NCBI GenBank assembly: GCA_030042035.1
Contig: JASIAN010000006.1
Span: 1 to 40,287 of the forward strand
From: Alphaproteobacteria bacterium
GTDB lineage: Bacteria; Pseudomonadota; Alphaproteobacteria; ATCC43930; CGMCC-115725
Direction of reading: 5' to 3'
Length of the DNA: 40,287 bases
Position numbers and translations under genes: made by a program. The number at the start of each line of letters is the position of its first letter. The stretch's first letter is position 1. The notes under the pieces are model-generated. The model saw only the letters and a program-made list of their open reading frames with translations. It was not told the DNA's origin and made no database searches. Shown in pieces: positions 32,695 to 36,690 of the stretch.

Positions 32695-33900
32695 CTAGAC
32701 GGCGCCGAGGGCGCGGTCGAGATCGGCGAGGAGGTCCGTCTCGGCTTCGAGGCCGGCCGACAGGCGCACAAGGCCGTCGGTGATGCCGAGTACGGCGCGC
32801 TGCTCGGGCTTGAGGCGCGAATGCGTCGTCGTCGCCGGATGGGTGATGAGGCTTTTGCTGTCGCCGAGGTTGTTGGAGATATCGACGAGGCGCAGCGCGT
32901 CGAGACAGCGGAACGCACCAGCTTTCCCGCCGGCGATCTCAAACGCAATGAGCGTGCCGCCGGCGCTCATCTGGCGCTGCGCCAGCTCATATTGCGGGTG
33001 GCTCGGCGAACCGGGGTAGAGCACGTGCGCCACTTTGGGGTGGGCCGCGAGGTGACGCGCGATGGCGGCGGCGGTGCGGCATTGCCGCTCGAGCCTCAGT
33101 TCCAGCGTCTCCAGACCCTTCAGCAAGAGCCAGGCGTTGAACGGCGACAGCGACGGCCCGGTGTGGCGATAGAACTGGCCGAGATCTTCCCTGATGAATT
33201 TTTCGCTGGCGAGGATCGCGCCGCCCAAGGCGCGGCCCTGACCGTCGATATGTTTCGTTGCGGAATAGACAACGACATCGGCGCCGAGTGCCAGCGGCTT
33301 CTGCAACAGCGGCGTCGCGAACACATTGTCGACGACGAGGACCGCGCCGGCGCGATGCGCGAGCCGCGCCACCGCAGCAATATCGACGATTTCCATCGCC
33401 GGGTTTGACGGGCTCTCGCAAAAGACAACCGCCGCCCCCGGCGCCAGCGCTTCTTCCCAGGCCGACAGATCGCGGCCATCGACCAGCACCGTCTCGACGC
33501 CGTAGCGCGGCAGCAGGTCGGCGACGATGTAATGACACGAGCCGAACAGCGCGCGGCTCGCGACAAGCCGCTGGCCCGCCCGCAATTTGCAGAACAGCGC
33601 GGCAAACACCGCCGCCATGCCGCTCGCCGTCGCGCGACAAGCCTCCGCCCCTTCGATCAGCCGCAACCGCTCCTCGAACATTGTTACGGTCGGGTTGCGA
33701 TAGCGCGAATAGACGTAACGCGACCCGTCTGCCTTGAAGGCGGCCTCGGCCTCGGCGGCGCTGCGATAGACAAAGCCCGATGTGAGGAACAGGGCTTCGG
33801 AGGTCTCCTCATAGGCGCTGCGCTCGCTGCCGCCGCGGACCAGAAGGGTCGCGGGGGCGAGCGCGGCGGCGAATTCGGGCGGCAGGATCGGTGCGGGCAT
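32695..33900 (-). CDS. metZ: O-succinylhomoserine sulfhydrylase
   Basis: 401 residues from ATG 33898-33900; ATG 33907-33909 is an alternative. It makes homocysteine from an acyl-homoserine and sulfide. PLP fold type I: FLTSGFVYRSAAEAEAAF near residue 39, YVYSRYRNPTVTMFEERL, ATASGMAAV, FCESPSNPAMEIVDI, DNVFATPLLQ, then the PLP lysine K216 in YSATKHIDGQG. The C-terminal part has SLSPFNAWLLLKGLETL and LITHPATTTHS. These features match the MetZ branch of the Cys/Met metabolism enzymes. The gene has its own promoter, a SAM-II riboswitch and a terminator in the leader, so high SAM should stop transcription. Confidence 0.93.
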   Translation of the reverse strand: MPAPILPPEFAAALAPATLLVRGGSERSAYEETSEALFLTSGFVYRSAAEAEAAFKADGSRYVYSRYRNPTVTMFEERLRLIEGAEACRATASGMAAVFAALFCKLRAGQRLVASRALFGSCHYIVADLLPRYGVETVLVDGRDLSAWEEALAPGAAVVFCESPSNPAMEIVDIAAVARLAHRAGAVLVVDNVFATPLLQKPLALGADVVVYSATKHIDGQGRALGGAILASEKFIREDLGQFYRHTGPSLSPFNAWLLLKGLETLELRLERQCRTAAAIARHLAAHPKVAHVLYPGSPSHPQYELAQRQMSAGGTLIAFEIAGGKAGAFRCLDALRLVDISNNLGDSKSLITHPATTTHSRLKPEQRAVLGITDGLVRLSAGLEAETDLLADLDRALGAV

Positions 33901-33936
33901 CACGGGCATCCTCGTTGGGCACGCCCGCACCGGGTC

Positions 33937-33970
33937 AAACAAAAACCCCGGTCCGGCGCGGGCCAGGGTT
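33937..33970 (-). terminator. intrinsic terminator in metZ leader
   Basis: Minus strand: AACCCTGG (33970-33963) pairs with CCGGGGTT (33951-33944) and is followed by a T-rich run (TTTTTGTTT). It lies between the SAM-II aptamer and the metZ start, where a riboswitch expression platform is expected. Confidence 0.8.
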
Positions 33971-33986
33971 CTGATCGGCTCCCCGA

Positions 33987-34041
33987 CCTTTTAGCGCATT
34001 ATTTTACGTGGCGCGCAAGCCGGTCGGCTCAAATCACCACG
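33987..34041 (-). promoter_or_regulatory. SAM-II riboswitch aptamer upstream of metZ
   Basis: On the minus strand, P1 is CGTGGTG (34041-34035) pairing with CGCCACG about 22 nt later. The loop starts ATTTGAGCCG and continues GGCTTGC, as in SAM-II (metA-type) aptamers. The 3' part GCGCTAAAAGG (33997-33987) matches the conserved GCUAAA-type end that folds back as a pseudoknot. SAM-II is known from alphaproteobacteria, always near methionine genes. Here it precedes metZ and an intrinsic terminator, so SAM binding is expected to lower metZ expression. Confidence 0.85.
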
Positions 34042-34051
34042 AACAGTCCGT

Positions 34052-34109: not shown

Positions 34110-34907
<798 letters not shown>

Positions 34908-35114
34908 TCAGCCGCCCTGCAACGGCCGTACGATCTCGACCTGGTCGCCGGGCGATAGCGCCTGCGAGGGCCATTCGGCGCGGCGCACGACGGCGCCGTT
35001 CACCGCAACGGCGAGGAAGCGAGCCTTGGCGTCGATGCCGCGCGCGGCGAGCAGCTCGGCGACGGTCGCGGCGGCTGTTTCGGCCTCTTGGCCGTTGATG
35101 CGCAGCCAGGTCAT
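34908..35114 (-). CDS. thiS: sulfur-carrier protein ThiS
   Basis: 68 residues from ATG 35112-35114, overlapping the thiO stop by 4 bp (ATGA), a sign of coupled translation. It is a ubiquitin-like fold: LRINGQEAE at the N-terminus, VAELLAARGID, AVAVNGAVVRR, and the essential C-terminal Gly-Gly (IVRPLQGG), which is adenylated and becomes the thiocarboxylate sulfur donor for ThiG. Confidence 0.94.
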   Translation of the reverse strand: MTWLRINGQEAETAAATVAELLAARGIDAKARFLAVAVNGAVVRRAEWPSQALSPGDQVEIVRPLQGG

Positions 35115-36283
35115 TGCACCGCCTCGCGCGGCCGCGCGGACCGGGAAAAGCGCTCGGGCGAAAACGGCCGTGCCAACTCGGGCAGCTTTCCGCCCAAAAT
35201 ATAGGTGCCGACGACGGCAGCGGTGACCGGCGTCAACAGAATGCCGTTGCGGTGATGGCCGGTCGCGATGACGAGGCCGTCAATGCCGGCGGGGCCAATC
35301 AGCGGCGCGTCGTCGCGCGAGCCCGGACGAAAGCCGACCCAGGTCTCGGCAACCGGCAATTCCTCGATCGCCGGCAACCCGCGCCATGCGCCGTCGAGCA
35401 GCGCCAACAGTCCGCCGGCGGTCAGCCGCGCGTCGAAGCCGCGCTCCTCGACCGTTGCGCCGATGATAAGACGGCCATCGAGCCGCGGCGCCAGATAGGC
35501 GCGCGGCAGCCACACGACATGCCGTAAGAGCGGCGCCGCCGGGTCCATCTGCAGCGCCAGCATCTGCCCTTTGATTGGGCGTACCGCAGGCAACGAGGCG
35601 GGCGGGATGCCACCGACCTCGCGCGACCAGGCGCCGGCCGCCAGCACGACGATGTCCGCCTCGTCGCGGCCGCGCGCGCCTTCGACGCCGGTGGCCCGCC
35701 CGCCCGTCACGATGATCTCGTGCACCGCGCAATGCTCGATGAGTTCGGCGCCGGCGCGCCGGGCCGCAACCGCCAGCGCGCGGCCGAGCAGGCGGTTTTC
35801 GACCTGATGGTCGCGGGGGCTCCAGACCGCCGCGGCGATGCCAGGCTTCAGGTGCGGCTCGCGCTGGCGCGCCTCGGCCGCGCTGAGCCATTCGAGATCG
35901 AGGCCAAGGCCCTTCTGAAAGTCGTAAGAATGGCGCAACTGCGCCGCGTCGTCGCGATTGAGCGCGACGACCAGCGTGCCTTCGCTGCGGTATTCGATCG
36001 CAATGCCGGAAGCCGCTTCGAGCTCGCGCGCGAAATCTGGCCACAGGCGCTGACTTTCCAGCGTCAGCGACAACAGCGTCTCTTCGCCCGGCTCGGTTTC
36101 GACCGCTGCCGCCAGCATGCCCGCCGCCGCCCAGCTCGCGCCGCGCCCGGCCTCGCCGCGATCGTAGACCGTAACGGTGCAGCCGGCCTGCGCCAAGCGC
36201 CAAGCGATGCCGAGGCCAATGACCCCGGCGCCGACGACAATCGTCTTCGGGCGATGCTGCGGCGCGACAAAATTTGCGCTAAT
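35111..36283 (-). CDS. thiO: glycine oxidase ThiO, probable AUU start
   Basis: 390 residues if translation starts at ATT 36283-36281. This ATT stands 6 nt after a GGAGGGAG Shine-Dalgarno (36297-36290). No ATG, GTG or TTG lies in frame between there and the first Rossmann strand (TIVVGAGVIGLGIAWRLAQA). The only ATG in frame, 36322-36320, lies inside the TPP aptamer without a ribosome-binding site. The protein is a FAD-dependent amine oxidase: GRGASWAAAGMLAAAVE early, VLAAGAWSREVGG mid, and GLVIATGHHRNGILLTP near the C-terminus. ThiO oxidises glycine to the imine used by ThiG. Confidence 0.9.
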   Translation of the reverse strand: MSANFVAPQHRPKTIVVGAGVIGLGIAWRLAQAGCTVTVYDRGEAGRGASWAAAGMLAAAVETEPGEETLLSLTLESQRLWPDFARELEAASGIAIEYRSEGTLVVALNRDDAAQLRHSYDFQKGLGLDLEWLSAAEARQREPHLKPGIAAAVWSPRDHQVENRLLGRALAVAARRAGAELIEHCAVHEIIVTGGRATGVEGARGRDEADIVVLAAGAWSREVGGIPPASLPAVRPIKGQMLALQMDPAAPLLRHVVWLPRAYLAPRLDGRLIIGATVEERGFDARLTAGGLLALLDGAWRGLPAIEELPVAETWVGFRPGSRDDAPLIGPAGIDGLVIATGHHRNGILLTPVTAAVVGTYILGGKLPELARPFSPERFSRSARPREAVQ

Positions 36284-36287
36284 GACG

Positions 36288-36366
36288 GACTCCCTCCACC
36301 GGGCATGCCCGGCCAGGTTCATTGGGTCTGATCTCAGCCGCCGGCCTCGCCCGCGGCACCCCAGCC
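36288..36366 (-). promoter_or_regulatory. TPP riboswitch (THI element) controlling thiO-thiS-thiG
   Basis: On the minus strand GGGGTGCC, GGCTGAGAT, CAGACCCAATGAACCTG, a GCCGGGC/GCCCGGT stem and GGAGGGAG occur in the order of the TPP aptamer (GGGGUGCC, CUGAGA, ACCC..UGAACCUG, GGGA). The 3' end of the aptamer contains the Shine-Dalgarno of thiO, so TPP binding should block translation initiation directly. No terminator was seen between the aptamer and thiO. Confidence 0.95.
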
Positions 36367-36499
36367 TCGCCCTCAATGTCAGGCGGAGGCTGCGGCGATG
36401 CAAGGTTTTTTTGCGTGGATGCGCGCCGCCGCGTCCCCTGCGACCGGCGCGGCGAAGGGCGGCGCGCCATTAACGGTTTCGTCAGGGTTTGGTGGCCTA

Positions 36500-36600
36500 A
36501 TTATTGCTACGTGCTGTCGCGTTGGGTGCGATGGGCACGTTGCCCACCATGGGCATCCTCCCCTCAGCCTTGAGGCCGCCGTCCCGGCGGCCTCATTTTT
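36500..36600 (+). ncRNA. possible structured leader or small RNA ahead of the CoA-transferase operon
   Basis: TGGGCA (36532-36537), TGCCCA (36541-36546) and TGGGCA (36550-36555) allow two mutually exclusive 6-bp hairpins sharing the middle arm. CCTCA (36562-36566) can pair with TGAGG (36571-36575), which would break the terminator stem that begins at 36572. An unpaired TCCTCCCC lies between, a motif similar to the anti-Shine-Dalgarno loops of alphaproteobacterial small RNAs. A possible -10 (CTAATTAT) is near 36498. The region 36367-36690 has no gene I can support. Confidence 0.4.
36572..36600 (+). terminator. strong intrinsic terminator in leader of CoA-transferase operon
   Basis: GAGGCCGCC (36572-36580) and GGCGGCCTC (36586-36594) form a perfect 9-bp stem with a GTCCC loop, followed by ATTTTT. 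It points to the plus strand, where no complete gene lies upstream within 400 bp. It therefore ends a short transcript or attenuates the operon starting at 36691. Confidence 0.88.
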
Positions 36601-36690
36601 GGCCGTTCGCCCGAAATCCAGGCAAATTGACAGCCGCCCTGCGCCGGCACTATGACCGCGGCAAAGCTTGCGCCGAGGCAGGAGCCGGAC

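Follow-up and report, generated by a model that had tools for sequence, protein, structure and literature searches.

Evidence for an AUU start codon of thiO behind a Shine-Dalgarno sequence embedded in a variant TPP riboswitch aptamer of Alphaproteobacteria

The window, i.e., the whole stretch of 40,287 nucleotides analyzed here (positions 1 to 40,287 of contig JASIAN010000006.1, assembly GCA_030042035.1, from an alphaproteobacterium), carries on its minus strand a set of thiamin genes in the order thiO-thiS-thiG. The first of these, thiO (35111-36283), codes for a glycine oxidase of 390 amino acids when read from the ATT codon described below; it scored 368.5 bits against the ThiO equivalog TIGR02352 (cut-off 250.8 bits), its relatives in the PDB are annotated as glycine oxidase, and it adjoins thiS. 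The thiS gene (34908-35114; TIGR01683, 62.9 bits) begins with an ATG that overlaps the thiO stop codon as ATGA, and this overlap was the rule among the loci compared, both in those with an NTG start of thiO and in those with ATT/ATC. The third gene (34110-34880) returned only weak barrel-family matches from NCBIfam, and is presumably thiG-like, judging from its place after thiS, its translated sequence and general knowledge of such operons. Overall, the ThiO protein is of full length with the family positions conserved, and the operon is intact. Two further RNA elements were noted in the vicinity. A SAM-II (SAM_alpha) riboswitch (33971-34050, minus strand; 67.3 bits) separates thiG from a sulfhydrylase-like gene (32695-33942) that is also encoded on the minus strand, and a match to the mmgR/suhB-type small RNA (36535-36607, plus strand; 41.8 bits against a cut-off of 41) was located in intergenic DNA opposite the thi operon.

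The thiO leader contains a TPP riboswitch aptamer of variant form (36274-36373, minus strand), which was matched by RF00059 with 37.1 bits (E = 6.9e-6), i.e., below the gathering score of 54.3 bits. The core elements CTGAGA, ACCC, GAACCTG and AGGGA were all there and hardly varied among 15 leaders from two genera, and the thiamin genes follow directly downstream, which is the location typical of a TPP riboswitch. The departure from the class resides in P5/L5 and J4/5, where the usual UAAU loop and CG are replaced in the window by a GCAUGC loop and UG, and where the congeners vary. In the thiO aptamers of genera g1 and g11 (L003-L015, L045 and L220), P5/L5 takes the form CCGGG-NNN-CCCGG or CCGGGC-NN-GCCCGG with loss of the UAAU loop, and J4/5 often has U for C; every member scored below the cut-off (29-43 bits), whereas the aptamers of other genera of the family passed it with 57-64 bits. 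The thiC aptamers of the order mostly scored 61-78 bits, and those in the same genomes as the low-scoring thiO aptamers had normal scores. Single-sequence folding of the leader was no better than that of shuffled sequences (z = -0.12). Membership of the window aptamer in the TPP class is backed by core and context, despite its failing the Rfam cut-off, and binding of TPP is predicted rather than certain.

When the minus strand is read, GGAGGGAG at 36297-36290 is followed by TCCGTC at 36289-36284 and then by ATT at 36283-36281, which places 6 nt between the purine-rich element and an ATT codon in frame with the 390-residue ThiO. The putative Shine-Dalgarno sequence GGAGGGAG is at the same time the conserved 3' core of the aptamer, and its AGGGAG was invariant in the 15 aligned leaders. 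The ATT begins 7 nt past the final base of GGGA, inside the 15 nt from the end of the aptamer core that mark direct attenuation of translation. The codons that follow are AGC GCA AAT TTT GTC GCG CCG CAG CAT CGC CCG AAG ACG ATT GTC GTC GGC GCC GGG; no ATG, GTG or TTG lies in frame in the window ORF between the ATT and the GxGxxG of the Rossmann fold, the first downstream NTG being a TTG at residue 30. On the upstream side, the frame is open up to 36473, and contains two TTG codons and a single ATG (36322-36320), the latter within the aptamer core CCCAATGAACCTG. The sequence-only reading that preceded this analysis had described a Shine-Dalgarno element at the 3' end of the aptamer, 6 nt before an in-frame ATT, with no in-frame ATG, GTG or TTG before the Rossmann strand and one upstream ATG inside the aptamer core; all of this held when the sequence was read again, to which the two TTG codons are to be added. 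It had also warned that gene callers would mis-start the gene, and a mechanical ORF finder limited to NTG codons indeed placed the start at TTG 36403, upstream of the aptamer.

The same reading had proposed an alignment of related leaders, and thiO leaders were compared within the genus, family, order and class; AUU/AUC was found to be kept in the genus and family, with AUG (or GTG/TTG) at the equivalent site elsewhere. Seven congeners, counting that of the window, have a thiO leader, and in every one of them ATT or ATC comes directly after AGGGAGTCCGTC. Of the seven genomes identified in the sister genus g11, six have ATT/ATC at the equivalent site or within 2 bases of it, while the seventh (L012) reads AGGGAGTCCGGC-ATG-AGC at the identical position, which identifies this position as the start. 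Genus g9 presents a similar picture, with CCCGTC-ATC-CGC-GAC in three species and CCTGCC-ATG-CCC-GAC in one, and in more distant species, where the start lies about as far from the aptamer, it is ATG (Azospirillum, Inquilinus), GTG (Chelatococcus and one Skermanella) or TTG (another Skermanella). An alignment of 13 leaders from g1 and g11 showed the A and T of the start codon to be invariant, with only T, C or G in the third place; codons 2-12 were variable, with a mean of 62% per site, and the invariance of AGGGAGTCC, just 5' of the start codon, results from its being part of the aptamer.

One may nonetheless imagine that translation starts farther upstream, at the aptamer-core ATG (36322) or at a TTG beyond it, such that the ATT is an internal isoleucine codon. 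The open frame of the window with its one ATG and two TTG codons would permit this, and the exchange of ATT and ATC would, taken alone, fit a synonymous Ile codon; however, in-frame stops and the occurrence of ATG, GTG or TTG at this exact site in other species speak against it. In three of the relatives (L004, L006 and L013), a TGA that falls 3' of the ATG site lies 15 nt upstream of ATT/ATC, and for L016, L018, L020, L025 and L027 the distance from an upstream in-frame stop is 24 nt, in each case with no NTG in the gap. Moreover, most congeners have CTG or a different codon in place of this ATG, and an upstream start would render the aptamer core coding and leave the gene without an aptamer-borne Shine-Dalgarno sequence. 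Among the 29 ATT/ATC genes as a whole, the stretch from the upstream in-frame stop to ATT/ATC was free of NTG in 14, of which 13 also lacked ATG, GTG, TTG and CTG in the 54 nt that follow; one of the 14 (L222) belongs to a single-contig genome (G038) from another family of the order. An upstream ATG or TTG start was thus ruled out by the in-frame stops of relatives, and we regard it as very improbable. Start of thiO at the ATT, as originally claimed, is strongly backed by the conservation of the site, its exchange with ATG and the in-frame stops in the aptamers of many relatives, and the assignment may be considered well supported by the comparison of leaders.

The frequency of the rare starts was estimated on 113 non-redundant thiO genes, 96 of which have their start no more than 16 nt from the aptamer GGGA. 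These 96 direct-aptamer genes comprise 52 ATG, 12 GTG, 3 TTG, 17 ATT, 12 ATC and no ATA starts, i.e., 67 NTG against 29 ATT/ATC, with 44 of the 96 being other than ATG; a non-NTG start kept across species without a usable NTG was found in those 29, including the 14 that lack NTG between the upstream stop and the ATT/ATC. Since any NTG in the start window was given precedence, the count of ATT/ATC is conservative, and the resulting share of about 30% pertains to this sample, centered on relatives of the query, and not to the class at large. The spacing from aptamer to start was similar in the two codon classes. Chance occurrence of ATT was ruled out by frame controls: an in-frame ATT, ATC or ATA 3-16 nt past GGGA should turn up in about 18-19% of cases (12 of the 67 NTG genes; 3/29 and 2/29 when the ATT/ATC genes are read in their two other frames), but was found in 29 of the 30 direct-aptamer genes lacking an NTG at this distance (binomial probability about 3e-20, with relatedness ignored). 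The thirtieth gene (L022) has a possible CTG start. The leaders of both L022 and L098 are without NTG or ATT/ATC/ATA in the start window, and their likeliest start is a CTG 9 nt past GGGA. When mapped on the ThiO tree, a quick tree with many unresolved forks, the division between NTG and ATT/ATC took 10-11 changes, at least 6 of which were forced by well-supported branches. The rare starts have been gained or lost several times, and the lineages that bear them are genera g1/g11, g6, g8 and g9 of family f1, family f2, and the locus L057, the L058/L109/L169 group, L043 and L108, the last being AT-rich and the weakest case. The comparison shows the start site, the use of AUU/AUC in the clade, its exchange with AUG, GUG or UUG elsewhere, and its repeated change.

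It is to be noted that the assembly of the window is fragmented (351 contigs, 94% complete, 4% contamination), which raises the question whether an ATG was misread or misassembled as ATT, or whether thiO is a pseudogene. The pseudogene reading is contradicted by the full-length protein, its conserved family positions and the intact operon, and an error by the agreement of many independent assemblies, including the single-contig genomes G038 and G039 from another family, which also have ATT; sequencing error was ruled out on this ground, the probability of either being practically negligible, and the corrected sequence with ATG at this site that had been named as a refutation is unlikely to emerge. 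Translation might also begin downstream at another non-NTG codon, such as the ATT 14 codons on, and the poor conservation of the first 11 codons would agree with this; however, no such candidate is preceded by a Shine-Dalgarno sequence, the FAD fold would be disrupted if translation began within the first beta strand, the aptamer Shine-Dalgarno sequence lies at an ideal distance from the ATT proposed here, and homologues with ATG, GTG or TTG start equally far from the aptamer, all of which make a downstream start highly improbable. A more substantial alternative accepts the AUU/AUC start as real but neutral, in that a strong, fixed Shine-Dalgarno sequence and low demand for ThiO would allow the codon to decay with no second layer of control. 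The repeated changes in both directions and the free interchange of AUU and AUC within genera are compatible with neutrality, but ATG is only one substitution away, the third base was T, C or G only in the sample, and ATT/ATC has persisted, at 73-82% protein identity, throughout the genus and in most of its sister, with the neighboring codons diverging. On balance, we consider neutrality unlikely, though it deserves to be kept in mind.

Other genes of these bacteria served for comparison. In the same genome and order, thiC has its own TPP riboswitch and a separate Shine-Dalgarno sequence, and its start was canonical in all 14 readable loci (13 ATG and 1 TTG), no rare start of the thiO type being found in them. 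In a small set of high-scoring loci from the class, other genes with direct-type TPP riboswitches mostly had ATG, and sometimes GTG, near the aptamer. In one locus (L266), a direct-type TPP aptamer precedes a long open frame with an in-frame ATC 5 nt past GGGA and no NTG for 44 nt, which is possibly a further rare start. In each of the eight genomes of the genus, infC starts at a conserved ATA, located behind AGGAGA or directly after TAA, which indicates that these bacteria employ and retain rare starts akin to AUU. In L152 and L156 the TAA immediately precedes the ATA, and L156 has no NTG between the ATA and the conserved domain. Across the infC loci of the genus and its relatives (L143-L161), a conserved ATA behind AGGAG was seen, with ATC in L160.

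Taken together, the best explanation of the locus, to which we assign a probability of roughly 0.7, is a direct TPP riboswitch whose aptamer carries the Shine-Dalgarno sequence of a gene with an AUU start, the start codon setting the yield of ThiO. In this proposal, a direct-type TPP riboswitch governs a thiO-thiS-thiG operon headed by thiO, in which the AGGGAG of the purine-rich 3' aptamer core would act as Shine-Dalgarno sequence and initiation would occur 6 nt on, at AUU. Bound TPP would close the 3' side of the aptamer and hide this sequence; such TPP-dependent hiding is likely by analogy, since a Shine-Dalgarno sequence in the aptamer core is an established arrangement of TPP riboswitches. 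Once the sequence is free, initiation at AUU/AUC would still be expected to be weak and sensitive to IF3, through mispairing of the initiator tRNA at the third base and discrimination by IF3. Because the aptamer fixes the Shine-Dalgarno sequence, we propose that the start codon is the remaining means by which evolution could set the yield of ThiO, and it may thus constitute a second setting on a gene already under an RNA switch. ThiO releases hydrogen peroxide and an unstable imine, which makes a low dose plausible, and a low yield of an enzyme with such reactive products may have been favored or tolerated. The ATGA overlap may pass the limit in yield on to thiS by translational coupling; if thiS is so coupled, a weak thiO start would also lower ThiS, which a dosage argument made on ThiO alone leaves unexplained. 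We infer dual control, low dosage and IF3 sensitivity of thiO, and the low dosage may reflect drift instead of adaptation. In a wider and distinctly tentative form, about which we are more doubtful than confident, alphaproteobacterial thiO genes would have repeatedly taken up AUU/AUC to form a translational gate with two inputs, TPP and IF3-dependent initiation fidelity, and the setting of this gate would depend on the third base of the start codon.

To our knowledge, very few genes use the rare AUU or AUC starts. The occurrence of AUU/AUC in about 30% of the sampled direct-riboswitch thiO genes, with several independent switches to or from AUG, therefore offers natural replicates for studying why start codons weaken, and suggests that where the Shine-Dalgarno sequence is fixed by an aptamer, the start codon becomes the free variable. 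On the practical side, start-finders limited to ATG, GTG and TTG would misplace the thiO start in these species, and riboswitch sequence may enter the predicted protein. In the literature searched, which covered a minority of subscription papers, no precedent was found for a riboswitch-controlled gene, or a thiO, with an AUU/AUC (non-AUG) start, and in a genome survey the replacement of AUG by AUU was recorded once in 61,358 ancestral AUG starts (PMC5622118).

The thiO leader combines two known kinds of element, namely an aptamer-borne Shine-Dalgarno sequence and a rare start. The first belongs to a recognized class of direct translation attenuation (Barrick and Breaker 2007, PMC2258182), in which, as in thiO, the purine-rich 3' core of the TPP aptamer doubles as the Shine-Dalgarno sequence and no more than 15 nt separate the aptamer from the start codon; the thiO start differs in being AUU/AUC, the passages of that paper on this class making no mention of rare starts. 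As for the second, the rare starts of infC and sigR lower yield and respond to IF3 (PMC5472188). Like infC, which encodes IF3 and uses AUU, AUC or AUA in IF3 autoregulation (PMC5472188), thiO has an evolutionarily conserved non-NTG start behind a good Shine-Dalgarno sequence, and the AUA start of the genus's own infC adds a shared usage of rare starts; unlike IF3, ThiO does not act on initiation, such that there is no direct feedback loop, its place being taken by the riboswitch. In Streptomyces sigR, an IF3-repressed GTC start likewise keeps one product of an operon low (PMC5472188), but the codon differs, the riboswitch is peculiar to thiO, and the dependence on IF3, documented for sigR, is only inferred for thiO. 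Escherichia coli pcnB (Binns and Masters 2002, as given in the reference list of PMC13009471) appears comparable in that an AUU limits the dose of an enzyme, and differs, as far as that source goes, in having no riboswitch. Lastly, cvfC1 (AUU) and ccpN (AUA) of Staphylococcus aureus, the yield of which is lowered by their rare starts (PMC13009471), share with thiO the conservation of the rare codon and a strong Shine-Dalgarno sequence, with the distinction that in thiO this sequence is part of a ligand-binding aptamer.
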